64,000 bases of DNA, taken from contig JAJUJC010000002.1 in the NCBI GenBank assembly GCA_029267335.1, positions 1 to 64,000 on the forward strand, written 5' to 3'. The translations under genes were made by a program, and so were the position numbers. A model generated the notes under the pieces. That model was not told where the DNA came from. It did no database searches and was given only the letters and a program-made list of their open reading frames with translations. The stretch's first letter is position 1. Every line of letters begins with the position of its first letter. Positions 20,410 through 31,680 of this stretch are shown piece after piece. The stretch comes from Intestinibacillus massiliensis (GTDB lineage Bacteria; Bacillota; Clostridia; Oscillospirales; Butyricicoccaceae).

Positions 20410-22284
20410 TTATAGATTGGTCGGGGTGATCGCCTCGTAGTCTGCGAGCGTGCCGCCGTTCTGGAAGCACTCGATGATCTGCTTGCCCAGCGGATCGAGC
20501 TCGGGCGTATTGAACTTTGCGAGCTCCTTTGCGAAGAAATCGTTCAGGATCTTGGCGCCCGCGTCATAGCCGTCGGTGCCGAGCAGATCCTGCGTTTCAC
20601 AGCGCAGGTACTTGGAGCGAATGCGCTGACCGTCGATGGTCAGATCCTTCATCGCATAGCCAAGCAGCGGGCAGCGTGCCGGCTCAAGGTGCTCACGGCG
20701 GATTTTTGCGCCGCCGTGGCGCGCGAGATACTCACGCGAGATCCACTCTGCCATGAAGCCGATTTTGTATACGCCGATATGCTGGTTCGGGATGAGCACA
20801 TAACGGGTGTTCGGGCTCTTGACGATTTGATCGAGCAGCAGGTTCGCCTGCTTGACGCACAGACCGGTCGCAAACGGCCAGTAAGAGCCAACGCCTTCGC
20901 TCTTGAGCTCACCGCCGCCGACGATGGACGGGTTGTTAAAGCCGCGCGGTGCGACCAAACGCCACAGCCATGCCAGTGCGGGCGGAATGATGTGCATCAT
21001 ACCCATGATGCCGTAATTCGGGTTGTCGCGGGTGGACGGGGGCATACGCACGCCAAAAGAACGTACATCGACCTCGACCGGCTCCTTGACGATGTTCGGC
21101 ACATCCCAGCGCGGAACGATGGCACGCGGGTTCGGGCAGGGCTTGCCGTTGGAATCGAGCGTGTGCTCCCAAATGAGCAGCGTTGCGCCCGGATGACCTT
21201 CCATGTTAAAGAAGCACAGCGGCTCCTTGGGCTGGGTGCAGATGCGCTCGTACACCGGATCGCTGCCGTAGTGGGTCACGCCGTCCATGCGCAGGAACCA
21301 ACCATCCTCACCGTCGACCAGTACGAGCTTGCCGCTCTGGTTCTGGATCGCGGGGTAGCAGGTCGCCATATCGTCGCACACCGGCTCGATCTTGCAGGTC
21401 GGGCCCATGGTCAGAATGGTCTGCTCGCCCGTGACCGTGTGGGTGGAGAGCAGGATGTTGCCGTCGTGCATGCGGGAGATGTCCTGCAGCATTTCGCTCT
21501 TGCCGCCGCCGGACGCGCCCTCGTGCATGATGACGATTTCGTTTTCATACGGGGTGATGACACGACCGGCAGAGGTGTGCGCGGTCACCCAGCCCTCCTG
21601 CTCGCCGATGTCGAGCAGAACCGAGTAAACGCCCTTCTTTGCGGACGGTCCCGGATAAAGGTTGTAGGAAAAGACCTCATGGCAGTCGTCCAGACGATTG
21701 TGGACGACGACCTGACGGCCGTCAAAGTGCGTATGACGGAACGGGGGCGCGACATACACGATCGCGCGGGGCTTAAAGCCCTCGGTCTCGCGTGCATCGA
21801 CAAAGCCCTGCAGATGTGCGAGCGCAAACGCAAAGAACGCCGCCTGCTTCGGGCACACGAGCATGGAGCCGTAGCCGTAAATGTTGCCGCCGGAGTTGAA
21901 GGGCATCAGGATGAGCTCCTGCGTTTTGAACCACTCCATGGTCTCCTGGCGCAGCTTGCCGAACTCGTAGCCGTAAACGTCCTTAAAACGCGGCTTGTCC
22001 GTCGGCTTGTCGTCCGCGATGCGCATGCAATCGGGATCGCGGCGGCGCATGTAATCCTCAACATAGTTGACCGAAGCACCGTTTTTGCATCGTACGACGT
22101 CCGCTTCCTTGACCATGCCCTTGCCGGGCACGTCGAAGAGCACATCATAGGTATCCGCCTTGTCCGGCCCGAATACCATGTCGTACAGCTCCGCCTTGCT
22201 GGTCGGCACGGAAACGCCCTTGCAATGTTCGATCACATCGGTCAGTTCCTCGGTGAACGTGAACTTCTGTAATAACTGGTCCAT
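20410..22284 (-). CDS. P-loop protein, probably DUF4914 family (PEP carboxykinase-like)
   Basis: 624 residues, cytoplasmic. A P-loop GASGGGKS lies at residues 256-263 in the context IVIMHEGASGGGKSEM, which recalls the nucleotide loop of ATP-type PEP carboxykinase. Later conserved-looking phrases include NMEGHPGATLLIWEHT and GFNNPSIVGGGELKSEGVG. From memory this matches the uncharacterised DUF4914 family; I am not certain of the number. The enzyme reaction is unknown; a nucleotide-dependent kinase or carboxykinase-like activity is inferred from the loop. Start ATG 22284 follows AGGAGGTTATC. It is a single-gene unit with a strong promoter and terminator. Confidence 0.75.
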   Translation of the reverse strand: MDQLLQKFTFTEELTDVIEHCKGVSVPTSKAELYDMVFGPDKADTYDVLFDVPGKGMVKEADVVRCKNGASVNYVEDYMRRRDPDCMRIADDKPTDKPRFKDVYGYEFGKLRQETMEWFKTQELILMPFNSGGNIYGYGSMLVCPKQAAFFAFALAHLQGFVDARETEGFKPRAIVYVAPPFRHTHFDGRQVVVHNRLDDCHEVFSYNLYPGPSAKKGVYSVLLDIGEQEGWVTAHTSAGRVITPYENEIVIMHEGASGGGKSEMLQDISRMHDGNILLSTHTVTGEQTILTMGPTCKIEPVCDDMATCYPAIQNQSGKLVLVDGEDGWFLRMDGVTHYGSDPVYERICTQPKEPLCFFNMEGHPGATLLIWEHTLDSNGKPCPNPRAIVPRWDVPNIVKEPVEVDVRSFGVRMPPSTRDNPNYGIMGMMHIIPPALAWLWRLVAPRGFNNPSIVGGGELKSEGVGSYWPFATGLCVKQANLLLDQIVKSPNTRYVLIPNQHIGVYKIGFMAEWISREYLARHGGAKIRREHLEPARCPLLGYAMKDLTIDGQRIRSKYLRCETQDLLGTDGYDAGAKILNDFFAKELAKFNTPELDPLGKQIIECFQNGGTLADYEAITPTNL

Positions 22285-22497: not shown

Positions 22498-23577
22498 TCA
22501 CTTGCTGGTCTGATATGCAGTCTTGATCTGGTTCAGGCGCAAAGCCGCCGCGCTGTAGCGCGCGTCCGCCGTACCGGTCCCGGCGGGCACGCCGAGCGTC
22601 GCCGCGTCTGCGGGCAGCACATAGCCGTAGGTCTTCCAGCGCGTCATGGCATTCTCGAAGGCGGTCTGCTGCGCGGCGCTCTCGCGCTGCGCCTGCTGCT
22701 GCGCCAGTGAAGCCGTATACTTTTGATAATCGAGCGTCGGTGTGCCGCCGAGATACCCCGTGACCGCCGCGCTCGACAGCGCATAATTTCGGTCGGCAGA
22801 CTGCTGCTGCAAGGCGTAACTGCGGTCGGCGTTATACTGCGACAGCGCGATCGACGCAAGCTGCTGCGCTGCGCTCGCCGCCGCGGTCGCGTTCTGCGTG
22901 CGCAGCGCGGTATCCGCGGTCATCGCGGCGTCCTCCGCTGCGCCGAGCGCGGTCTGCTTTGCAGCGGCTAAGCCGTTCAGATCGCTTTTGAGCGCGTTAT
23001 CCGCCGTAATGCGCGTGCTTTCCGCATAGCCGGTCGTGGGTGCGGCGTACATGCCGCCCGCATTCAGTCCGAGTGCGGCGAGTTTTTCCTCGCTCCCGCG
23101 CGCGGTCAGCCGCGCATCGGTCTGCGCCTGCGTGACGTTTGCGGTGTACTGCTGCTCAATCGCGCTGCGCTGTGCGGCGAGCCGGCGCGCATTTTCCTGC
23201 CGCGCCGCCTCAAACGCTTCGAGACGCGACCGCTCGATCGCGTCGTACAGACTGCCGATATTGATCGCCCCGCCCGCCGTGCCGCTGTAACCCCCGCCCG
23301 TGCCGAAGCTGCCTGCGCTGCCCATATTGCTCCTGCCGATGGTCGCTCCGCCTGCCGAAGTCGAATACGGTCTGTAATCGCCGCTCCACTGCGACACCGC
23401 CTGATTGCTCGCGACCTTGCCCGCAAGCCCTTCCGCATCGATCTTGTTCTGACGCTCACTGAGCAGCGTCTCGCGCTTTGCCGTATCGGTTTCGCTCGCG
23501 ATCGCCGCAGAATAGTCCTTATTTTTTACATAATAGCCCGCGATGATGCTCCTCTCCTTTCCTCCTCGAGCGCGCAC
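22498..23577 (-). CDS. Phage Ala/Gln-rich structural or ejection-type protein
   Basis: Up to 359 residues. Rich in Ala, Gln, Ser and Gly; residues about 110-270 look like long helices full of AAQ/ARQ/QQ runs, with short Gly-rich stretches before them (TGGGYSGTAGG). Such helical low-complexity proteins occur at the end of short-tailed phage structural operons as internal or ejection proteins; that role is inferred. The start is unclear: GTG 23577 has no ribosome site, while AAAGGAGAGGAGC stands just before an ATC at 23547. It overlaps the preceding gene. It ends the cassette. Confidence 0.65.
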   Translation of the reverse strand: MRARGGKERSIIAGYYVKNKDYSAAIASETDTAKRETLLSERQNKIDAEGLAGKVASNQAVSQWSGDYRPYSTSAGGATIGRSNMGSAGSFGTGGGYSGTAGGAINIGSLYDAIERSRLEAFEAARQENARRLAAQRSAIEQQYTANVTQAQTDARLTARGSEEKLAALGLNAGGMYAAPTTGYAESTRITADNALKSDLNGLAAAKQTALGAAEDAAMTADTALRTQNATAAASAAQQLASIALSQYNADRSYALQQQSADRNYALSSAAVTGYLGGTPTLDYQKYTASLAQQQAQRESAAQQTAFENAMTRWKTYGYVLPADAATLGVPAGTGTADARYSAAALRLNQIKTAYQTSK

Positions 23578-23762
23578 AGCCGGTGCGAGTTGGATTTTGC
23601 GCGCTCCTCTACCTTATACAGGCGTTCCAGACCCCCGCCGAGCCGCTGCACCTGCTGCTCGAGCTGCCCGATGCGGTAGCTTATGAGCCTGCTCGACTGC
23701 ACCAGCCCGACGATTTGGATGACCGCCGACGCGACGACTGCCGCCCACCCCTCAACGCCCAT
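23526..23762 (-). CDS. Small phage membrane/coiled-coil protein (XhlA-like organisation)
   Basis: 78 residues. An N-terminal hydrophobic segment (VEGWAAVVASAVIQIVGLV) is followed by a heptad-like stretch (YRIGQLEQQVQRLGGGLERL) and a charged tail. A membrane segment plus coiled coil recalls the haemolysin XhlA type found in phage lysis cassettes, though here the order is reversed relative to some XhlA proteins. Start ATG 23762 overlaps the end of the 50-residue gene by 11 bases, so translation is probably coupled. Confidence 0.6.
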   Translation of the reverse strand: MGVEGWAAVVASAVIQIVGLVQSSRLISYRIGQLEQQVQRLGGGLERLYKVEERAKSNSHRLCALEEERRGASSRAIM

Positions 23763-23904
23763 CCGTTGCGACCCGCGAGCCGATATAACCGCCGATCGCG
23801 CCGACCGCCGCCGCACACAGGTTTTCCATGTGCAGGAACACGCCGCAAATACAGATGACGCCGAGCGCCGCGAGCGCAATCGTATCATTGTCCATGAATT
23901 TCAC
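23752..23904 (-). CDS. 50-residue phage membrane protein, holin-like size
   Basis: Starts at GTG 23904, 8 bases after AGGAGG, and ends at 23752. One long hydrophobic stretch (TIALAALGVICICGVFLHM) and a second milder one (AAAVGAIGGYIG) make it a likely one- or two-pass membrane protein. It overlaps the next gene by 11 bases. A holin-like role is inferred only from size, topology and position. Confidence 0.65.
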   Translation of the reverse strand: MKFMDNDTIALAALGVICICGVFLHMENLCAAAVGAIGGYIGSRVATDGR

Positions 23905-23925: not shown

Positions 23926-25743
23926 TTATTTCACATCCACACCGCGCGTATACCGCAGCACGAGCGCGAGCAGCCCGAACGGCTCGTCCGCGCGGTCGTT
24001 GCCCGCGCGCAGCTGCACGGTCGTGCACCGCCGCAGCGTGCGCCGCATATGAAACGGCGACGCACCGGGCACACAGCGGAATGACAGGCGCGAAAAATTG
24101 AACGTTGCGAACGAAAACAGATCAAGATTGTGCGTTTCCTCCGCGACCGGATTGCCGTCCGCCAGATAGCGCACGCGCGCGCCCGACCGCGAATATGGCA
24201 TGAGCACAGGAAAAAACGCGCGCACGCTTTTGTAGCCGCTCCAATCGCCCAGACTGAGCACAGGCGTGCACCAGTATGCGTCGATCGCCGCGCCATCGTC
24301 GAGATAGGCGTGCTCCTCATCCGCGCGGCACATCCGGCACACGCGACCGTCCGCCGTGCCGAAATACAGCGCGCCGCCGCTCTCTGCGAAGCACTGCGCG
24401 GGAAAATTGTCCCAGTAGTACCATGCCGGCGCGCCGTCCTCGTCCGTAATGCGTCCGTCCGCGACATAACAGTGCGTGCCCACCGCGAGATAATACTTGT
24501 CCTCAAAGACCGCCGCGCACGCGTGCGCAAGATCGTTTTCCGCGGTCAAACGCGGGTCGATGGCGCGCGATGCAGAACGGATGGCGCGCTGCTCCGCGAC
24601 CGCCGTGCCATACACGCCCATGACCCCGCGCGCGGACACGAACAGCGGCGTATCCCCGAGGGATGCGAACCCGCGCCGTGCCAGCGCACCCGCGCCCAGC
24701 GCGCCCTGCTTGAGCGGATAGAGCGCGCTGCCGTCGTCCGCCATCAGATAGGTGCGCAGATACTGCGTCGCCTCCTGCGTGCCGCCCTCCTTGACGACGA
24801 TCTGGCTCTCATACTGCTTGACATAGCCCACAATGGCGGATGCGTCCGAGCCGATGCGCGTGTAACCCGTATCGGGGAAATAGGTGGGGTCGTATAAGCC
24901 GGACTGCCAGTCGCACGCGGGTTCATCGGCATTGCCGGACAGGAACACACGCGTGTCGTTTTTGCCGCCGTACAGCCCTGCAATGCGGCATTTGTTGATT
25001 TTCTCCAAATAGCCGTTCACCGTTTTAGCAAACGTGATCGTCACATTGGCGACACCGTTCCCGTTTGGCGGCGCGCTGGCGAGCGTGACCACGCCGGTCG
25101 TGCGGTCGACCGCAGACACCGTGACCGCCGTGCCGTTCACGCTCGCCGTCACCGCAGTGCTGTCGAGATTCTTGACGTCGAGAAAAAACTGCGTCGCAGA
25201 GCCGTTGCCGACAAAGGTGTTGATGCGGCAGGGCGTGAGCAGATTGACCGGCTCAAACGCCGTTCCGCCGCCCGTGGGCGGCGCGTTGATCGTCGTAGTC
25301 GGCACGAACGCGACCTCTGCGACCGCACGCGCCTTCCACACGCCCGCTTCCTGTTTCACCACGCGGTAGGTCGCGCCGTCGAGCACATAGAGCGCGCCGC
25401 CCATGACAAATGCCGCGGAAAAGTCGCACGCCGCCCCCGTGACGAGCGCGGTGAGCGTGCCGTCCTGCGCAAGCACACTGAGGGTGTCGCCGTGATGGCA
25501 CAGCAGCGCGCCGCCGCCGTCCGGCAGCGGAAACAGCCCGTATACCGGCGTACCGGGTGTGCACACCCGCTTGTAACCCGGCCGCTTGACGAGAAAATGC
25601 GTTTCCTCCGCGACCAGATTTTTCATGTCCGGACTGCGCGTCAGCCCGACCTTGGTCGGGTGCGTGCCGAGGTCGATGCCGCCGAAGCGCTCCGCACGCG
25701 TTTCGTGCACGGTCTCCGCGCGCGGGAAGGCATACGCCCGCAT
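23926..25743 (-). CDS. Phage tail/stopper-type structural protein
   Basis: 605 residues, cytoplasmic, no membrane segment. The N-terminus (FGGIDLGTHPTKVGLTRSPD then KRPGYKRV) resembles short-tail tube or head-completion proteins that list a gene product's parameters over repeated beta blades. The rest has many short beta-like segments and Gly/Asp turns, consistent with a beta-propeller. Position after the connector gene supports a tail tube or hub role. The start ATG 25743 overlaps the upstream stop (TGATG). I cannot name the exact family. Confidence 0.6.
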   Translation of the reverse strand: MRAYAFPRAETVHETRAERFGGIDLGTHPTKVGLTRSPDMKNLVAEETHFLVKRPGYKRVCTPGTPVYGLFPLPDGGGALLCHHGDTLSVLAQDGTLTALVTGAACDFSAAFVMGGALYVLDGATYRVVKQEAGVWKARAVAEVAFVPTTTINAPPTGGGTAFEPVNLLTPCRINTFVGNGSATQFFLDVKNLDSTAVTASVNGTAVTVSAVDRTTGVVTLASAPPNGNGVANVTITFAKTVNGYLEKINKCRIAGLYGGKNDTRVFLSGNADEPACDWQSGLYDPTYFPDTGYTRIGSDASAIVGYVKQYESQIVVKEGGTQEATQYLRTYLMADDGSALYPLKQGALGAGALARRGFASLGDTPLFVSARGVMGVYGTAVAEQRAIRSASRAIDPRLTAENDLAHACAAVFEDKYYLAVGTHCYVADGRITDEDGAPAWYYWDNFPAQCFAESGGALYFGTADGRVCRMCRADEEHAYLDDGAAIDAYWCTPVLSLGDWSGYKSVRAFFPVLMPYSRSGARVRYLADGNPVAEETHNLDLFSFATFNFSRLSFRCVPGASPFHMRRTLRRCTTVQLRAGNDRADEPFGLLALVLRYTRGVDVK

Positions 25744-26111
25744 CAGTCCATCTCCTCGACCGGCTGCAGCGTCACCGGACAGTAACGCTGCAGACGGTCG
25801 GCAAATTCCGCCGCGCACCAGTTGAATTTGAGCTTGTCGTCGTCGCACACGAGCAGCGCCGCCAGCCCATACGGGAAGCATTCGCGCGCGAGCGCTTCGG
25901 GCGCGGGCAGCGCGTCCTCAAGCGCGGTAATGCGCGGCGGCGCGCTGATCGCCTCCCCACCCGCCGCAAGGCTGAGCGCGCACAGCTCGCGGCGGCAGTT
26001 TGCCAGCACCTGATTCATGTGATAGAGCGCGAATTTTTCATAATAGCCCGCGCTGTCGCTCGTTTCTCCGAGCAGCGCGAGCGCGGCTTCGTAGCATTCC
26101 TTGCCTGTCAT
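25743..26111 (-). CDS. Phage head-tail connector-like protein
   Basis: 122 residues, mostly helical, starting MTGKECYEAALALLGE. Size, helical content and position directly after the capsid gene fit a head-tail adaptor (gp6/gp4-type). The start is ATG 26111 after AAAGGAGGGAAC. It overlaps the next gene at the stop. No family motif is certain. Confidence 0.6.
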   Translation of the reverse strand: MTGKECYEAALALLGETSDSAGYYEKFALYHMNQVLANCRRELCALSLAAGGEAISAPPRITALEDALPAPEALARECFPYGLAALLVCDDDKLKFNWCAAEFADRLQRYCPVTLQPVEEMD

Positions 26112-26174: not shown

Positions 26175-27221
26175 TTACTGTGCGGCGACGGCGGACGGGT
26201 ACAGCCCCGTGCCGACCGCATACGCGCGCGCCTTCTCACCGCTTGCAAGCGTGACCGCGGACACATAGTCCTTCGCGCTGTCCGAGTAGCGCGGGTCGGA
26301 GCCGTCGACCGTGTAGCGGATCGCCGCGCCGCTCGTCGCGCAGGTGATGGTCGCGGTCTGACCGCTGACCTCGATCGCAGGCGTCTTTGTCGTTTTGTCC
26401 GCCGCGACAAGCGCATACACGCCCGCGCACTTTGCGCCGAGCACGAACGCATCATAGTAGTGGCGTCCCTCGATGAGCGCGCCCGATACGCCGACCGGAT
26501 CCTCGTGTACCTTCGCGTCGGAGATCTTATACGGCAGCAGCACCGCGTCGCGGTGGGTGATGATGAAATAGCAGTTTTCCGGCAGATAGCTCTTGGGCAC
26601 GCGCACGAGCTGCATGCCGAAGATCTCACCGACCACGCCCTTTGCAAGGCTCTTTTCCCCGAGCGCGGGCACGCCCGTGAACTCATCCGAGGTGCAGACA
26701 TACTTGTACAGCTCGCTCGTCAGATAGACATAGCGGTTGTCGTCCGGCACGAGCGCGTCGTCGAGCACCTGCGCGCCGCGTGCGAGCAGCGACACGATGT
26801 TCGCCTTGGACGGCACGGCGGCAGCCTCCTCGACCGTGCCCGCGAGGGTCGCAAAACGGCGCAGCGCATAGCGATCGGCGGCGGGGGTGGATTTTTCGCT
26901 CAGCTGCAAGCGCAGCATGTCCGCGGCGCGCTTGGCAAGGTTCTGGTCGAGGTTGTTGCCCTTGTCGATCGTCAGCGTGAAGGACTTGTCCTGCGTCATT
27001 TTCAGTTCCTGCACAGTGTCCTGCATTTCGGTGGGCGTACCGTAGCGGCTCAGCCCGTCGCGTACATAGTCGGTCTCCTCGACCGTGATGGGGGTGTAGA
27101 CCTTGAGCGTCTTGACGCCCGTCAGGTCAAAGGTGTTTGCGGTCTTGCCCTTGACGAACGAGCCCGCAGTAAAGACCGACGCGATCTGGTCGGCATATTT
27201 GGTTGCAAGATTGATAGCCAT
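26175..27221 (-). CDS. Phage major capsid protein with a C-terminal chitobiase-type beta domain
   Basis: 348 residues. Residues about 1-275 look like an HK97/P22-type coat protein: MAINLATKYADQIASVF at the start, a central VYLTSELYKYV strand-helix region, and GRHYYDAFVLGAKCAGVYAL near the end. The last about 65 residues (ATITCATSGAAIRYTVDG through GLYPSAV) match the pattern of the small CHB_HEX_C Ig-like domain (xIxYTxDGSxP), often fused to phage coat proteins as a surface decoration. Ribosome site AGGGAGGAAA precedes ATG 27221. Confidence 0.75.
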   Translation of the reverse strand: MAINLATKYADQIASVFTAGSFVKGKTANTFDLTGVKTLKVYTPITVEETDYVRDGLSRYGTPTEMQDTVQELKMTQDKSFTLTIDKGNNLDQNLAKRAADMLRLQLSEKSTPAADRYALRRFATLAGTVEEAAAVPSKANIVSLLARGAQVLDDALVPDDNRYVYLTSELYKYVCTSDEFTGVPALGEKSLAKGVVGEIFGMQLVRVPKSYLPENCYFIITHRDAVLLPYKISDAKVHEDPVGVSGALIEGRHYYDAFVLGAKCAGVYALVAADKTTKTPAIEVSGQTATITCATSGAAIRYTVDGSDPRYSDSAKDYVSAVTLASGEKARAYAVGTGLYPSAVAAQ

Positions 27222-27245: not shown

Positions 27246-27704
27246 TTACTTACCCAGCAGCGCGCGCACAACGGGGTCGCCCTCGGGCGCTTCGCCGTCC
27301 GATGCCGCCGAGCCGATCGCGAGCGCGCGGTTTGCCTTGTCCTTGGTCAGCGCGGCAAGCTGCGCGCGCAGCTGCGCAAGCTCATACTTGCGGTATGCCG
27401 CGACCAGACTGCCCTCCGCCTGCGCATCCTGCCACACCTCGGGCGGGATGTCCGCGGGCGCGACATCGGGATACTCCGCGAGAAACGCGGCGTAAACGTC
27501 GCCCATCGGGGTCGCGGCGGCAGCGGTCTCGCGGCGTACCGCCTGATTGCGCGCGCTCAGCCCCGCCTGTGCCGCCTGCACGAGCTGCTCGAGTGTCAGC
27601 TCGAGCGTCTGCCCGTCAACCTGCACCGCATAGGTCTGCGCGCCCGCTGCGGGTGCGCCCCCCTGCGTGCCGTCCTGCGCCGCTGTGTCAAAAAGATTGT
27701 TCAT
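27246..27704 (-). CDS. Phage scaffold-like protein
   Basis: 152 residues, acidic and helical, rich in Ala, Gln and Glu (VDGQTLELTLEQLVQAAQAG; LAQLRAQLAALTKDK). This composition and the position between portal and capsid are typical of scaffolding proteins. The start overlaps the portal stop in an ATGA arrangement (27701-27704). No protease motif is visible, so the particle probably uses a free scaffold. Confidence 0.65.
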   Translation of the reverse strand: MNNLFDTAAQDGTQGGAPAAGAQTYAVQVDGQTLELTLEQLVQAAQAGLSARNQAVRRETAAAATPMGDVYAAFLAEYPDVAPADIPPEVWQDAQAEGSLVAAYRKYELAQLRAQLAALTKDKANRALAIGSAASDGEAPEGDPVVRALLGK

Positions 27705-29215
27705 GCTTGTTTCGCTCCTTCCTGCGTTGGCTCGATCCGTTTTTCCCGGAGCGCACGCAGCAGAGCCGTTTTGCCGCGCACCTGTGCATCGGGAATGTTC
27801 TCCACATAGAGCAGCGGGTCGGTGATGACGCCGCTCTCAAGCAAATGGTCGTTCGTCACGGTCTGCATGGTCTCCGACCAGTAGCTTGCCGCACCGACCT
27901 CGACGTTGACGGTCAGTTCGCGCCCCGCGAGCGTGCCGAAGTCAAACGTCACCGTGCGTTCGCTGCCGTCCTCCGCCGTCACACGGTAGCTGCGCTCGCC
28001 GTAGTGCGCGCCCATCAGGTCGAGGAAAATGCGCGCCCAATCCTCGATGAAGCGGTAAAATTCCATGCGGGTCAGTTCCATCGGCGCGGCGGTCGCCTGC
28101 TGCACCGCAACGATCGCGGAGGTGTTCGTCGGCGCGACGTTGCCGAGCACGGCGTCCGATGCCCCCATGAGCTCCATGGTGTCACGCATCATCTGTTTGA
28201 GCACGGTCATGACCTGCGCAGAGATGTCCGGCGCACGGAACGCCGTCAGGATCGCTTCGTTCGGGTTACCGTGCATACCGATCGCCTTGCCTACATCGTT
28301 CGAGTAGCCGTTGGGGAACCGTGTCATATCGTAGATCACCTTGGGGAACGCGACCTGCTTGATGCACTGCACATACATCGAGTACAGCTTGTTGATCGCG
28401 ATCTGGTTCGGGATCGCCTCGGTGACGGGCGATGCGCCGTGGCATGAGTTTTTGACGCGATACCAGCTCATATAGGCGATCGGATACCGCGTGTAGGGCG
28501 TGCGTTTTTCCGGCATGATCGTCGCGGTGCGTGTGACCTTGACAAAGTGGATGCCGTCGTCCTCGCGCCACATTTTGAGCAGCGCGGTCGCATAGGGCAC
28601 GCCGTCGTCGGGGTCTGCGCCGTCGGGCACGATCGCGTTGATGTCCGCCGCGGATGCGTGATGGCGCAGTGCCTCGCATTTCAGCTCATCCACGTCGCGG
28701 CGCATTGCAAGCAGGATGTAGGGCTGCTTTTGCACCTCATCGGAGGTGGTATTGCCGAAAAAGACATTCGTATTGTCGATGTGTTCGACCGCGATCTCGC
28801 CGCGCACCGCCTGTCCGCTTTCCCGCGACGGGTCGAAGTGCACATAGAAGCAGCCGTCGCCGTCGACGCATGCGTCGCGCAGCAGCTGTCTGCCCATGCT
28901 CTTCACGCGGCTGCGCTCGATCGCCTCACGAAATGCCTGCGACAGCACCTGTTCGGTCGTTTCATCGCCGTCAAAGGGCGATGCCTGCACGGCAACGTCG
29001 TCCGAAACGAGCATGCTGACGAACAGATTGACGCAGCGGCGCAGCACATTGAAGATCAGTGGGTCGAGCGTGCGCACACGCAGCCCTTCCCATTGTCTGC
29101 CGAGGAAAAAATCCTCGTTGCGGCGCACGCGGTCATACAGTCCAATGCGCTGCTTGTACGCCTGTCCGCGTTCATATTCCCGCCAAATGCCCGCAGGGGT
29201 CACTTCACGTTTCAT
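27701..29215 (-). CDS. Phage portal protein
   Basis: 504 residues. The N-terminal part has the usual helical lead (RIGLYDRVRRNEDFFLGRQW), then FNVLRRCVNLFVSMLVSDD and the EHIDNTNVFFGNTTSDEVQK region. The C-terminal half has the long stem and crown helices (KQMMRDTMELMGASDAVLG). It would form the dodecameric ring through which terminase packs DNA. Start ATG 29215 follows GGGAGGAGGAC, and the gene overlaps the upstream small membrane gene by 11 bases. Confidence 0.85.
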   Translation of the reverse strand: MKREVTPAGIWREYERGQAYKQRIGLYDRVRRNEDFFLGRQWEGLRVRTLDPLIFNVLRRCVNLFVSMLVSDDVAVQASPFDGDETTEQVLSQAFREAIERSRVKSMGRQLLRDACVDGDGCFYVHFDPSRESGQAVRGEIAVEHIDNTNVFFGNTTSDEVQKQPYILLAMRRDVDELKCEALRHHASAADINAIVPDGADPDDGVPYATALLKMWREDDGIHFVKVTRTATIMPEKRTPYTRYPIAYMSWYRVKNSCHGASPVTEAIPNQIAINKLYSMYVQCIKQVAFPKVIYDMTRFPNGYSNDVGKAIGMHGNPNEAILTAFRAPDISAQVMTVLKQMMRDTMELMGASDAVLGNVAPTNTSAIVAVQQATAAPMELTRMEFYRFIEDWARIFLDLMGAHYGERSYRVTAEDGSERTVTFDFGTLAGRELTVNVEVGAASYWSETMQTVTNDHLLESGVITDPLLYVENIPDAQVRGKTALLRALREKRIEPTQEGAKQA

Positions 29216-29405
29216 CGTCGTCCTCCTCCCGTTGCGGCGCGCCCTGATAGCCGAGCAGCGCCGCCAGATCGTTTCCGAAATCATCCTCACGCGGCTTGTC
29301 CGGCGGCGCATGCACCCCGCGCGGCGCAGGCGACCAACCGCCCGAAAGCAGCGCGCCCGCCGCGACAAGCAGCACCGCACCGATTGAAAACAGTAAAAAG
29401 TCCAT
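29205..29405 (-). CDS. Small membrane protein in the phage cassette
   Basis: 66 residues. One N-terminal membrane segment (MDFLLFSIGAVLLVAAGALL) is followed by a Pro-rich and acidic tail ending EEDDDET. ATG 29405 follows GGGAGAGAC. It lies between terminase and portal; no role is known. Confidence 0.65.
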   Translation of the reverse strand: MDFLLFSIGAVLLVAAGALLSGGWSPAPRGVHAPPDKPREDDFGNDLAALLGYQGAPQREEDDDET

Positions 29406-29475
29406 TTGTCTCTCCCAAATCCTAACGAATCTCCCGTCCCGCGCCACGCGGGGCGGTGTCCATGCCGGCCAGGCA

Positions 29476-30771
29476 CTAGAAGTACGCGAGAAACGCATCC
29501 ACCTCGTCGCGTTCCTCGCGGCGCGCAGGCGTATCCGCGCGCATCGTCGCACAAAAGCCGCGCAGCGCATCGGGCGCGTGGGTCAGCTCGTGCGGACGGT
29601 TCGCCGCGTCGTTCGGGTCGGCACTGTCCGCCATGAGCGCGCCCAGCGTGCGGATGAGCTGCGTGCAGGTATCAAATACCCGCAAATGCGGCGTCAAAAT
29701 GCCCTGCTCATCGGGCTGCGGCTGCAAATATTCCTTGACCGCAAGCCAGCCCGTCACGCGGCGGTTGTCGCTCTTGTCAAAATACAGCCCATGCTGCGCG
29801 AAGATCTCGACCGCCGAGCGTCCGGTCTCCTGCCGCCTGCCCCACAGGTCGGGCGGCGCAAACCGCTGCCGAATGCGCTCGTCCGGTCCTTCCGCCGCGC
29901 GCAGCCGCTCCGCCGCGGCAGATACGATCAGCCCGCTTTCGTACACCTCACGGTACACATACGCGCAGCCGCGCGGGTCGACCGCGATCCAAAGCGCCGC
30001 GAGCATGTCCAGTCCGTAGTCGATGGACAGGTAGCGCGGCCATTCCCCGGGAATTGCGCACGGCGCAATGACATGCGTGCCGCGCGAAAATTCCGGAAAA
30101 AAACGCCCCTTGGTCAGTTCCCAGTCGCCCTCAAGCAGCGCGCGCCGCTCGTGCTCGCCAAGCTGCCGCAGCCGGTCAAGATAGCCCGGATCGCGCGCCA
30201 TCAAAAAGCGGTTGTCCTGCACTTTCGCAGGCAGAAACAGCCGCGTGCGCCCGTCAAACGGCACGGGCTGATTGGGCGGCAGCGCGTCGATATAGCGCCG
30301 CTTGACCCAGTCGTGCCCCACGCCGCCGGGATTGGTCGTGCCCTTGACCAGCTTGGGGTAGCCGTTCGCACCGCGGATGCGGCTGAGCAGATACGTAAAC
30401 TGGAACCGCGTGAAATGTGTCAGCTCGTCGAAGCGAATGACGTCGTACTCCGCACTTTGGTACTTGACCACATCGCTTTCCGCGTCGCAGTAGCCGAATT
30501 CCAGTTCCGAGCCGTTGCAAAACCGCCAGCGGTGTGCGCTTGCCACATAGTTTCCCACAGCCTGTGGATAGAGTGTCAGGCTGACGCGCACAAGCGAACG
30601 CTCGAGTTCGGGCATCGTGCGCCGCAGCAGCAGTTGATGCGACCCCGCATAGCGCAGCGCGTAGATCAGTGCGTCAATGAGCTGCGCCCAGCTTTTGCCG
30701 CCGCCTGCCGCGCCGCCGAACAGCGTTTCATCCGCGTCCGAGCGCAAAAACGCAAGCTGCTGCCGCGTCAC
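29476..30771 (-). CDS. Phage terminase large subunit
   Basis: About 431 residues from GTG 30771; a CTG at 30783 overlapping the upstream stop is possible. The ATPase domain has Walker A GGAAGGGKS (about residues 19-27) and a Walker B-like VIRFDELTHF followed by a SRIRGANGYPKLV coupling region with GTTNPGG. The nuclease domain begins at SIDYGLDMLAALW, with a conserved Asp. It pumps and cuts DNA into capsids via the portal. The frame is open further upstream into the leading ORF, but that part reads as shadow Arg/Gly-rich sequence. Confidence 0.87.
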   Translation of the reverse strand: MTRQQLAFLRSDADETLFGGAAGGGKSWAQLIDALIYALRYAGSHQLLLRRTMPELERSLVRVSLTLYPQAVGNYVASAHRWRFCNGSELEFGYCDAESDVVKYQSAEYDVIRFDELTHFTRFQFTYLLSRIRGANGYPKLVKGTTNPGGVGHDWVKRRYIDALPPNQPVPFDGRTRLFLPAKVQDNRFLMARDPGYLDRLRQLGEHERRALLEGDWELTKGRFFPEFSRGTHVIAPCAIPGEWPRYLSIDYGLDMLAALWIAVDPRGCAYVYREVYESGLIVSAAAERLRAAEGPDERIRQRFAPPDLWGRRQETGRSAVEIFAQHGLYFDKSDNRRVTGWLAVKEYLQPQPDEQGILTPHLRVFDTCTQLIRTLGALMADSADPNDAANRPHELTHAPDALRGFCATMRADTPARREERDEVDAFLAYF

Positions 30772-30779
30772 GCCAAATC

Positions 30780-31004
30780 TCAGGTCGACTCGCCCTCGAC
30801 CGTGAGCACCAGATGAAAGTCCCCCGCCGCTTCGCGCGGTGTCAGCGCGTCGATCGTTTCCGCGAGTGCGCGCAGCTCTTTCGATGCCGCGATCAGCTCC
30901 TTCGCCTCGAGCGCGTCGTCGCGCAGCGTGCCGCGCAGCCGTTCGAGACAGATCGCCGCGGCATCCAGTACCTCCGCGCGCATGTTTTCGTCTTCCAATC
31001 GCAT
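30780..31004 (-). CDS. First gene of the phage cassette, small helical protein in the TerS position
   Basis: 74 residues, starting MRLEDENMRAEVLDAAAI, mostly helical and acidic. ATG 31004 is 5 bases after AAGGAG. It occupies the usual small-terminase position directly before the large subunit, but it is short and has no visible helix-turn-helix, so a TerS role is only a possibility. Confidence 0.6.
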   Translation of the reverse strand: MRLEDENMRAEVLDAAAICLERLRGTLRDDALEAKELIAASKELRALAETIDALTPREAAGDFHLVLTVEGEST

Positions 31005-31047: not shown

Positions 31048-31076
31048 ATAATAGCCGTGAACATTCGTTCTGTCAA
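31048..31076 (-). promoter_or_regulatory. Promoter of the phage cassette
   Basis: TTGACA (31071-31076), 17-base spacer, TATTAT (31048-31053) on the minus strand, about 45 bases before ATG 31004. It is close to consensus and should be strong when not repressed. Confidence 0.85.
31059..31070 (-). promoter_or_regulatory. LexA (SOS) box inside the phage promoter spacer
   Basis: GAACGAATGTTC, a perfect fit to the Gram-positive LexA core GAAC-RNRY-GTTC. It starts right after the -35 and fills 12 of the 17 spacer bases, the ideal place for repression by LexA and release after DNA damage. Confidence 0.78.
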
Positions 31077-31129
31077 GCATTTTTCAAACATTTGTTTTGT
31101 GGGCTATCCCACGTTCCTGTCGTGCGCGC

Positions 31130-31176: not shown

Positions 31177-31680
31177 TTACTGCTGCGCCTGCTGTGCCTG
31201 CTGTGCCTGCGCGGCTTTCTGCCACTGCTGCTGTAAGAACGCAAGTGCCTTTGCCGGCTCCTCGTTTGCGGTAGCGACCGCGAGGATGCCGAGCGCGTAA
31301 CGGTCGAGCATCATGACCGCGAGGCGAATCATGCGGCCCGTGATGTCGGGGTCGATGCTCTCGTCCTGCGGCGCCATGCCGGTGGTCTTGTAGCGCACCT
31401 CACCGTCCGAGAAGTCCATCTCGAAGTTGCCGTGATACAGCCCGTAATTTGCGCGGGTCAGAAACTCCGCAACCGCAACGCGGCGCTCTTCGGGCACCTT
31501 GATCGGGAATACGGTGTAACACAGCAGCGTTGAAGTGTCGACAGGCGACAGGATGCACGCGCAGTTTTCCACGGACTGCAGCTTCATGTGCATCATAACA
31601 TAGTTTTTGTCCTCATGCAGCTCATAGTGCCACTCTTCGTGGTTGAGGTAGCGGATAACGTCGGTCATTGTAACGGCCAT
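31177..31680 (-). CDS. YbjN-like (type III secretion chaperone-fold) protein
   Basis: 167 residues. Residues about 1-150 show the alternating strand-helix pattern of YbjN-domain proteins, including VRYKTTGMAPQDESIDPDITGRM (split over two segments) and a helix with LAVMMLDRYALGI. The C-terminus is a low-complexity Gln/Ala tail (AAQAQQAQQAQQ) encoded by near-repeats of CTGCTGTGC. Start ATG 31680 follows AAAGGAAG. No known enzymatic role; YbjN proteins are thought to act in protein-protein contacts. It is followed by a strong terminator. Confidence 0.7.
   Translation of the reverse strand: MAVTMTDVIRYLNHEEWHYELHEDKNYVMMHMKLQSVENCACILSPVDTSTLLCYTVFPIKVPEERRVAVAEFLTRANYGLYHGNFEMDFSDGEVRYKTTGMAPQDESIDPDITGRMIRLAVMMLDRYALGILAVATANEEPAKALAFLQQQWQKAAQAQQAQQAQQ

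Follow-up and report, generated by a model that had tools for sequence, protein, structure and literature searches.

What controls the phage-type operon on the minus strand of this DNA, and what kind of element is the operon itself? In the preliminary description of the window, by which we mean the whole stretch of 64,000 nt analysed here, the operon was called a phage cassette, a LexA box was noticed in the spacer of its promoter, and direct control by the host SOS response, not by a phage repressor, was inferred. The claimed arrangement, TTGACA-17-TATTAT with GAACGAATGTTC in the spacer, was confirmed at positions 31048-31076 of the minus strand. However, a second and stronger box had been overlooked just upstream. 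The elements are as follows.

31071-31076, minus strand: -35 hexamer TTGACA, by sequence reading
31048-31053, minus strand: -10 hexamer TATTAT, by sequence reading
31059-31070, minus strand: LexA box 1, GAACGAATGTTC, inside the promoter spacer
31086-31097, minus strand: LexA box 2, AAACAAATGTTT, upstream of the -35 hexamer; best LexA-matrix site in the window

The spacer of this promoter, which precedes the gene of a small terminase-like protein (terS), is exactly 17 nt long (GAACGAATGTTCACGGC) and starts with box 1; the box touches the -35 hexamer and ends 5 nt short of the -10 hexamer. With 11 of 12 consensus positions matched, the promoter is the best of five promoter-like sites between positions 22200 and 31700. 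The two boxes lie 27 bp apart, start to start. Box 1 is the sole occurrence of the exact GAACRNRYGTTC in the window, and the fit of all four RNRY positions claimed for it holds on the minus strand, the only strand on which it can be so read. Two marks of a Gram-positive LexA regulon are found at terS: a dyad of the GAAC-N4-GTTC type, which both GAACGAATGTTC and AAACAAATGTTT represent, and a box placed to block the promoter. Dyads of this type are given for the LexA boxes of Bacillus subtilis (GAACN4GTTC) and of Clostridium difficile in the available part of one report (PMC4234289).

The number of such boxes, taken alone, was rejected as proof. Perfect GAACNNNNGTTC was counted 20 times in the complete 2.2-Mb genome (contexts were read for 17 of these sites), as compared with 66 times for the reversed control pattern, and the window holds seven matches with at most one mismatch against 11.1 expected, so that the count alone is not significant. 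We also scored every window position with a LexA matrix made from 45 boxes at lexA, recA, dinB or dinB-like genes and a helicase gene, all of them pre-selected by our own pattern. The top site of the 64 kb was AAACATTTGTTT at 31086 (box 2; 19.9 bits), and the runners-up elsewhere in the window reached 10.9 and 10.6 bits. Box 1 alone scored 10.0 bits, slightly below the lowest training box (10.8 bits). A score of 19.9 was attained in 2 of 150 random windows; in a separate set of 60 random windows the maximum was 23.6 bits, and therefore at least one of these also attained it. That the boxes are chance resemblances is hardly conceivable. It is true that almost every 64-kb window should hold a single site as good as box 1 (58 of the 60 random windows do), and a lone site of this score is thus at the chance level. 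However, a pair of sites at most 40 bp apart, both of at least 9.9 bits and one of at least 15 bits, occurred in none of the 150 random windows; the boxes are moreover placed at a promoter, their placement is repeated in a second Intestinibacillus genome, and a box is found in every one of the related Agathobaculum-group cassettes described below. Since box 1 is at the chance level while box 2 and the pair are rare, the above-chance case rests on box 2, the placement at a near-consensus promoter and conservation, not on box 1 alone.

Whether the motif belongs to LexA can be judged from the SOS genes. One lexA match (3e-60) and one recA match were found in this genome. The lexA promoter carries AAACATATGTTT and AAACATGTGTTT, the recA promoter GAACATATGTTG, and the promoter of dinB, a gene in the impB/mucB/samB family, GAACTTTTGTTC; a common motif type at all three of these genes, a further mark of a LexA regulon, is thus established, with the lexA and recA boxes two letters and one letter off the perfect dyad, respectively. 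Among 22 genomes of relatives that were queried, 21 yielded lexA and 21 yielded recA. LexA-type boxes were present at lexA in all 21 that could be read: AAAC-N4-GTTT in 20, and GAAC-N4-GTTT in the remaining one (G052). Perfect GAAC-N4-GTTC was additionally found at lexA in six of nine Agathobaculum-group genomes. The lexA promoter box of one relative (G013) has the same letters as box 1, and that of many relatives the same letters as box 2. Boxes were also seen at dinB-like genes of the second Intestinibacillus genome (I. massiliensis, G051) and of G024, and at a UvrD-like helicase gene of G024, these genes being named by look. The recA promoters of the relatives matched our pattern in 5 of 21 genomes; among the 16 without a match to it, about 12 have by eye a looser dyad such as CGAACAAATTTTCG, and the four of the Butyricicoccus type (G032, G034, G038, G040) have no dyad by eye.

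There is thus no sign that LexA of this organism recognises a different sequence, which would have refuted the preliminary description. One may still suppose that the dyads are operators of another regulator, such as a phage-type repressor or another protein that binds GAAC dyads. LexA binding rests on no binding data, part of the boxes read AAAC..GTTT rather than GAAC..GTTC, the matrix score of box 1 is low, and the recA promoters of many relatives are off-pattern. This supposition is nevertheless quite improbable in our judgement, as similar words occur at all three SOS genes of this genome (lexA, recA, dinB) and at the lexA and dinB-like genes of relatives, and no repressor gene was found among the called cassette genes by ORF, Pfam and PHROG searches. 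Because such motifs lie at the three SOS genes of this very genome, the direct host control proposed earlier is well supported by comparison, with LexA binding and induction remaining inferred.

The operon behind this promoter is 8.5 kb long and consists of eleven ORFs, all on the minus strand, which are given here in the order of transcription.

30780..31004, minus strand: terS-like small terminase gene, 74 aa, just upstream of terL and preceded by GGAGAGGGG
29476..30792, minus strand: terL, large terminase (Terminase_6N, 1.5e-12; phrog_979, 4.7e-47)
29205..29570, minus strand: small ORF between terL and the portal gene, with homologues in G051 and some loci of genus g2; no Pfam or PHROG family match
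27701..29200, minus strand: portal protein (P22_portal, 3.4e-20; phrog_156, 1.4e-33)
27246..27704, minus strand: scaffold-like protein, from its position between portal and capsid; only phrog_14606 (unknown function), 1.8e-4
26175..27221, minus strand: major capsid protein with a C-terminal Fn3-associated/CHB_HEX domain (phrog_422, 2.7e-36; PF13290/PF13287)
25743..26111, minus strand: neck/head-completion-like protein, inferred from position; conserved in cassettes, no family match
23926..25746, minus strand: large virion structural protein (phrog_3287, 2e-22), its start chosen by comparison with G051
23752..23904, minus strand: 50-aa hydrophobic small protein, holin-like by look only; no Pfam match
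23526..23762, minus strand: small membrane protein with a coiled coil, by look; phrog_1863 (unknown function), 2.9e-6, with a longer ORF
22498..23577, minus strand: last cassette gene, helical alanine-rich protein, pilot/ejection-like by inference; conserved in cassettes, no Pfam or PHROG family match

In 12 aligned TerL sequences, the columns of Walker A, Walker B and the nuclease Asp are invariant. Neither an integrase nor a replication gene was recognised at the locus by ORF calls, Pfam and PHROG. No contractile or long-tail gene was recognised in the cassette by Pfam and PHROG, and the expectation for a PBSX-type element is thus not met. As for lysis, the resemblance of the two small membrane proteins at 23526-23904 to holins is by look only, and no endolysin was identified in the cassette. 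Two of the criteria for a gene transfer agent (GTA) are satisfied by this gene content: intact phage-derived head and packaging genes are present, and replication and integration genes are absent at the locus, although such genes elsewhere in the genome are not excluded. The genes in the relatives' loci were called by a simple script of our own, not by a published caller.

A third GTA criterion is a TerS without a DNA-binding domain, the loss of which is proposed as a mark of GTA-type TerS in the part of the source that was available (PMC6854486). The terS product of this genome, whose homologue in G051 is 51% identical over 53 aa, gave no Pfam or PHROG match, and no helix-turn-helix (HTH) was found in it. 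No HTH match was obtained in any of four cassette TerS proteins searched, that is, this genome's, that of G051, and the first 60-65 residues of two others. The TerS proteins of prophage-type cousins in G051 and G024 (L055 and L057) are 162-163 aa long and carry an N-terminal HTH_23 (7e-10 and 9e-9), with a resolvase-like gene, by look, upstream. The cassette TerS ORFs are of 57-88 aa in 25 of 28 cassettes; in the other three (L239, L242, L277) the script picked a wrong ORF, and for the rest it guessed the start codons. The criterion is fulfilled, although with a protein of this small size the lack of a match is only weak evidence. Some other loci also have short TerS-like ORFs ahead of terL, and TerS length alone is therefore not diagnostic. 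A short TerS apparently devoid of an HTH is supportive of the GTA reading, not decisive.

A further criterion is vertical inheritance with the host, for which the neighbourhood was compared. The genes that flank the cassette are host genes.

20410..22284, minus strand: DUF4914 protein gene (PF16260, E 0), with the same flank in G051, G024 and G046
31177..31680, minus strand: YbjN-like protein gene (PF10722), followed by flavin reductase, FtsK and UppP genes

Both flanks are identical in kind in G051, where two extra genes lie between the YbjN gene and terS. The Agathobaculum-group loci have HAD, UppP, FtsK and flavin reductase genes on one side and, in G024, the DUF4914 gene on the other; G046 also has a DUF4914 flank. 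The Butyricicoccus-type cassettes are flanked by GntR/ABC genes, which in the window sit at 37.6-39.5 kb. Relatives of terL occur in 69 of 87 genomes of the family, some of them of prophage type. When a host tree built on LexA and RecA only (G042 without a RecA row) was compared with a TerL, portal and capsid tree for 15 genomes, 10 of 12 splits were common to both; 2000 label shuffles gave a mean of 0.1 and a maximum of 3 common splits. From this congruence and the synteny, the criterion of vertical inheritance is met. The dN/dS values for eight distinct pairs (nine were run, of which L224-L221 duplicates G034-G042) were 0.027-0.120 for terL, 0.021-0.102 for portal and 0-0.074 for capsid; ftsK gave 0.035-0.182 where comparable, and the last cassette gene up to 0.214. 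Purifying selection on the cassette genes is strong. In this calculation, some gpH segments contain stops, with the query starting upstream of the likely start. The G+C content of the cassette is 0.641 against 0.59 in its own flanks, while a prophage-type relative in G051 has 0.545 against 0.631 in the flanks of that genome.

Could a functional prophage or satellite nevertheless have captured LexA control, with this as its late operon? The genes are ordered as in a short-tailed phage, and relatives contain the prophage-type cousins L055 and L057. We regard this as very improbable, because the locus has no recognised integrase or replication gene, host genes lie on both sides and match across genera, the host and cassette trees agree, and this genome yields a single terL match. 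The reading as an ordinary prophage late operon was rejected by synteny and tree agreement. Judged from these comparisons, the operon looks like a domesticated, vertically inherited head-and-packaging cassette. The earlier name, phage cassette, undersells the locus, which looks host-domesticated and GTA-like, not like a prophage. A similar arrangement was seen in an Oscillospiraceae MAG (L249:7120-15339): a terS-terL-portal-capsid cassette is preceded by GAACATATGTTC and enclosed by host-type genes, and genes that look XRE/ImmA-like adjoin it; this is a further GTA candidate.

The other circumstance that would have refuted the preliminary description, a lack of conservation of the box in related cassettes, was found for a part of them only. 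We scored at most 520 bp upstream of terL in the best 80 of 254 named-genome loci with a related terL, the Agathobaculum group being defined as loci named Agathobaculum or matching genus g2. In this sample, all 17 Agathobaculum-group cassettes score 15.9-20.4 bits. The box is also kept in both Intestinibacillus genomes: that of G051 scores 14.5 bits and occupies the same spacer position (TTGACA-GAACAATTGTTCTAAAC-TATTAT), with a second box 28 bp upstream, and TTGACA-17-TATTAT with a box in the spacer is found at terS in both. The cassette of G046, which belongs to another genus, scores 16.8 bits. However, none of the ten Butyricicoccus-type cassettes among these best 80 of 254 has the box (at most 10.6 bits). 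Two of the other 52 terL loci in the sample reach 15 bits (L249 and L294), and among viral loci (80 fetched, 76 scored) one exceeds 12 bits. Most Butyricicoccus-type loci have a different conserved promoter before terS, by eye TTGC.GTAGACAA with TATTAT, which was seen among L221, L223-L227, L229, L231, L233 and L246. Since the Butyricicoccus-type branch is nested among box bearers in both trees, the simplest reading is that the box was lost or replaced there, an inference from the trees. These cassettes, without the box and with another promoter, mean that a cassette can do without LexA control.

The pattern of a box between the -35 and -10 hexamers led beyond the cassette. In this genome, it was found at the window site, at C4:164983-165011, at C7:25297-25322 and, in a dissimilar form, at C1:565185. 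The C4 and C7 sites drive orphan genes that share an N-terminus (84% over 76 aa), and both products match phrog_14469, tail fiber, over residues 5-48 only (3e-8 and 9e-9). Two fibre promoters could be read in G051, and both are boxed (GAACATTTGTTT). All four readable Intestinibacillus fibre promoters have a 17-nt spacer, with the box 4 nt past the -35 hexamer and 1 nt before the -10 hexamer. Genes that are scattered over several loci yet regulated in common are another trait of GTAs. Here, two fibre-like genes at dispersed loci of this genome have such a box in the same type of promoter, and heads and fibres would therefore switch on together; that these fibres join this particle is inferred. 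The fibre genes of the Agathobaculum group and G046 have no box (best score, 8.7 bits). Many Agathobaculum-group fibre promoters (e.g., L085, L098 and L100) show by eye a long palindrome of the type GAGCAAATANTTGCTC abutting the -35 hexamer, possibly the operator of another regulator or a terminator.

A second feature of the fibre genes is their neighbourhood. Both fibre genes of this genome are convergent with genes of SLH-domain surface proteins, 80 and 81 bp away.

L104:4976-8985 (C4): fibre/S-layer locus, convergent pair
L106:9371-13040 (C7): fibre/S-layer locus, convergent pair

Throughout the family, a convergent SLH gene lies within 405 bp of 30 of 34 testable fibre genes (39 rows less two duplicates and three near a locus or contig end; a larger region of G047 and the C34 fibre of G051, cut at the contig end, are left out). 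The exceptions are the fibre-like genes of G024, one of G051, and those of G026 and G050, the last two being located about 7.4 and about 5.6 kb downstream of terL genes that are not of the cassette type. As a background, the same search in 476 kb of 23 other loci gave two SLH genes. Arrays of several fibre/S-layer pairs were seen in L214, L215 and L397 (G001) and in L216 and L217 (G046), with some fibres back to back. For six pairs each in G001 and G046, the similarity of the N-termini is 0.98 and 0.61 for the fibres and 0.83 and 0.90 for the SLH proteins, respectively, and that of the C-termini is 0.24 and 0.23 for the fibres and 0.09 and 0.06 for the SLH proteins. Such arrays look like a repertoire of adhesins and surface proteins. 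Covariation of the fibre and SLH C-termini was rejected as proof of pairing, since Mantel tests showed no such covariation (G001, r=-0.01, p=0.54; G046, r=-0.14, p=0.69), with six pairs in each and both sides too divergent for a test of this kind. The putative role of the S-layer protein as the fibre receptor therefore rests on neighbourhood only.

Other boxed sites were seen in the wider set. A LexA-type box lies just past the -10 hexamer of an operon at C4:280785 (L105:7760-8362), which encodes an 83-aa protein and a 112-aa sigma-70-region-4-like protein. The former has no relative in the loci compared, and the latter only a weak one (L111; 40% over 63 aa, 3e-5); because of this, the sigma-like regulator was rejected as a conserved driver or an analogue of GafA. 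A LexA-boxed promoter also lies close to a related spoIID gene in G024, where nothing but a very short ORF follows it. At L174:1501-1512 (C1:348531), AAACATTTGTTT lies between rplM-like and ttcA-like genes (by look), where a LexA function is doubtful.

The boxes, the promoter geometry, the gene content, the synteny, the tree congruence, the purifying selection and the box type of the fibre genes are the part of the argument drawn from sequences. Taken together, they lead us to regard as probable that a LexA operator pair holds an SOS-released, domesticated cassette of the GTA kind with co-induced fibres, in which LexA binding, induction, assembly, packaging and transfer are all inferred. Bound to AAACAAATGTTT and GAACGAATGTTC, LexA dimers would obstruct RNA polymerase at the operon's strongest promoter-like site. 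Upon DNA damage, RecA filaments would promote LexA cleavage, by which the terS promoter would be freed along with those of recA, dinB and the fibres. Heads would then assemble, and a TerS without an HTH would let TerL load unselected chromosomal DNA. The fibres would join, and the product would be small, short-tailed particles.

PBSX of Bacillus subtilis, which is inducible by DNA damage, has a contractile tail and its own Xre repressor, whereas the cassette found here is of the short-tailed type and has LexA boxes at its structural promoter. In the available part of the paper on FpGTA, PBSX is given as a second GTA-like case from Gram-positive bacteria, whose DNA is not injected (PMC12946183). 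Such a case recalls that an SOS-controlled, domesticated particle may transfer no DNA at all, but serve in PBSX-like killing of relatives, be a dead end or have another use for the host. LexA control and conservation would fit this equally well, and fibre genes beside S-layer genes would also suit killing. It appears unlikely, though by no means negligible, since contractile or long-tail genes are lacking among those recognised in the cassette, and since the catalytic positions of TerL are invariant and the packaging genes are under purifying selection, for which a killing machine would have no need.

We thus return to the DNA-packaging reading, to which known systems can be compared. By analogy, the cassette fits a GTA of the kind of FpGTA; no sequence comparison with FpGTA was made, and DNA transfer is inferred. 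According to the accessible portion of its report, FpGTA of Faecalibacterium prausnitzii (2026) forms 40-nm particles with about 9 kb of DNA, and packaged host fragments of 8.4-8.9 kb were found in faecal samples (PMC12946183). Its operon is 10.5 kb with ten ORFs, as compared with 8.5 kb and eleven here; like the present cassette, it has a TerS without an obvious DNA-binding domain, TerL, portal, scaffold and capsid, is of podovirus type and is without replication genes (PMC12946183). A second FpGTA locus with tail fibre genes lies about 125 kb off, and here one fibre-like gene lies about 133 kb off on the same contig; locus II of FpGTA contains a holin and an endolysin, whereas an endolysin was not found in our cassette (PMC12946183). 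As to regulation, GTAs are stated there to be likely SOS-inducible, in a single mention of SOS, and the main text contains neither 'LexA' nor 'promoter' (PMC12946183). FpGTA comes from a family other than Butyricicoccaceae, and LexA boxes at terS and fibre genes are visible here. No record with Faecalibacterium in its title is among the best 80 of 254 named-genome terL loci.

RcGTA of Rhodobacter capsulatus resembles the present case in being a domesticated cassette with a TerS lacking a DNA-binding domain and a link to LexA (PMC6854486, PMC9638019). As far as the available parts of these papers tell, it is driven by GafA and CtrA, and LexA is required by an unknown mechanism, apparently via CckA (PMC6854486, PMC9638019). 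Unlike RcGTA, our cassette has a box in the structural-gene promoter itself. For the alphaproteobacterial DsGTA of Dinoroseobacter shibae, which is driven by quorum sensing and CtrA, an in silico prediction places a putative LexA site at the gene cluster, but neither a placement in a promoter spacer nor boxed fibre loci are described in the part of the report available (PMC6473078). The LexA regulon of C. difficile has boxes of a like kind, GAAC-N4-GTTY, at lexA, recA and uvrB, but no phage-structural operon appears in the accessible text, in which 'prophage' occurs once and words starting with 'phage' are absent (PMC4234289). In the titles and beginnings of abstracts among the matches listed, no report was found of direct LexA boxes at a Bacillota GTA-like structural promoter and at dispersed fibre genes. 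By title, no report of the fibre/S-layer pairing was found among the GTA and S-layer matches listed, and 'gene transfer agent' was absent from the Agathobaculum, Butyricicoccus and Intestinibacillus matches listed.

Finally, the meaning of the findings for these bacteria is considered. It is conceivable, though we hold it only tentatively and rather doubt it, that the system is a damage-triggered donation of DNA aimed at kin, in which LexA directly and at the same moment frees the packaging operon and the scattered fibre genes, each fibre gene is passed on as a convergent pair with an S-layer gene, and this S-layer partner gene encodes or adjoins the receptor. If this is true, particles from a dying cell would be aimed at cells with the same surface coat, and the fibre/S-layer arrays would be a repertoire of adhesin-receptor pairs. 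The pairing of fibre and S-layer genes makes recipient choice by a GTA directly testable, and the combination of a LexA box in the terS promoter, a TerS without an HTH and host synteny provides a search signature for further GTAs. GTAs outside the Alphaproteobacteria are barely known, and FpGTA, the one reported from gut Bacillota, came without a regulator. The present locus indicates a second family of gut commensals with a cassette of the FpGTA kind, which appears to be wired directly to the host SOS repressor. If true, DNA-damaging drugs or other stress that induces SOS would directly cause gut commensals to release chromosomal DNA in packaged form.
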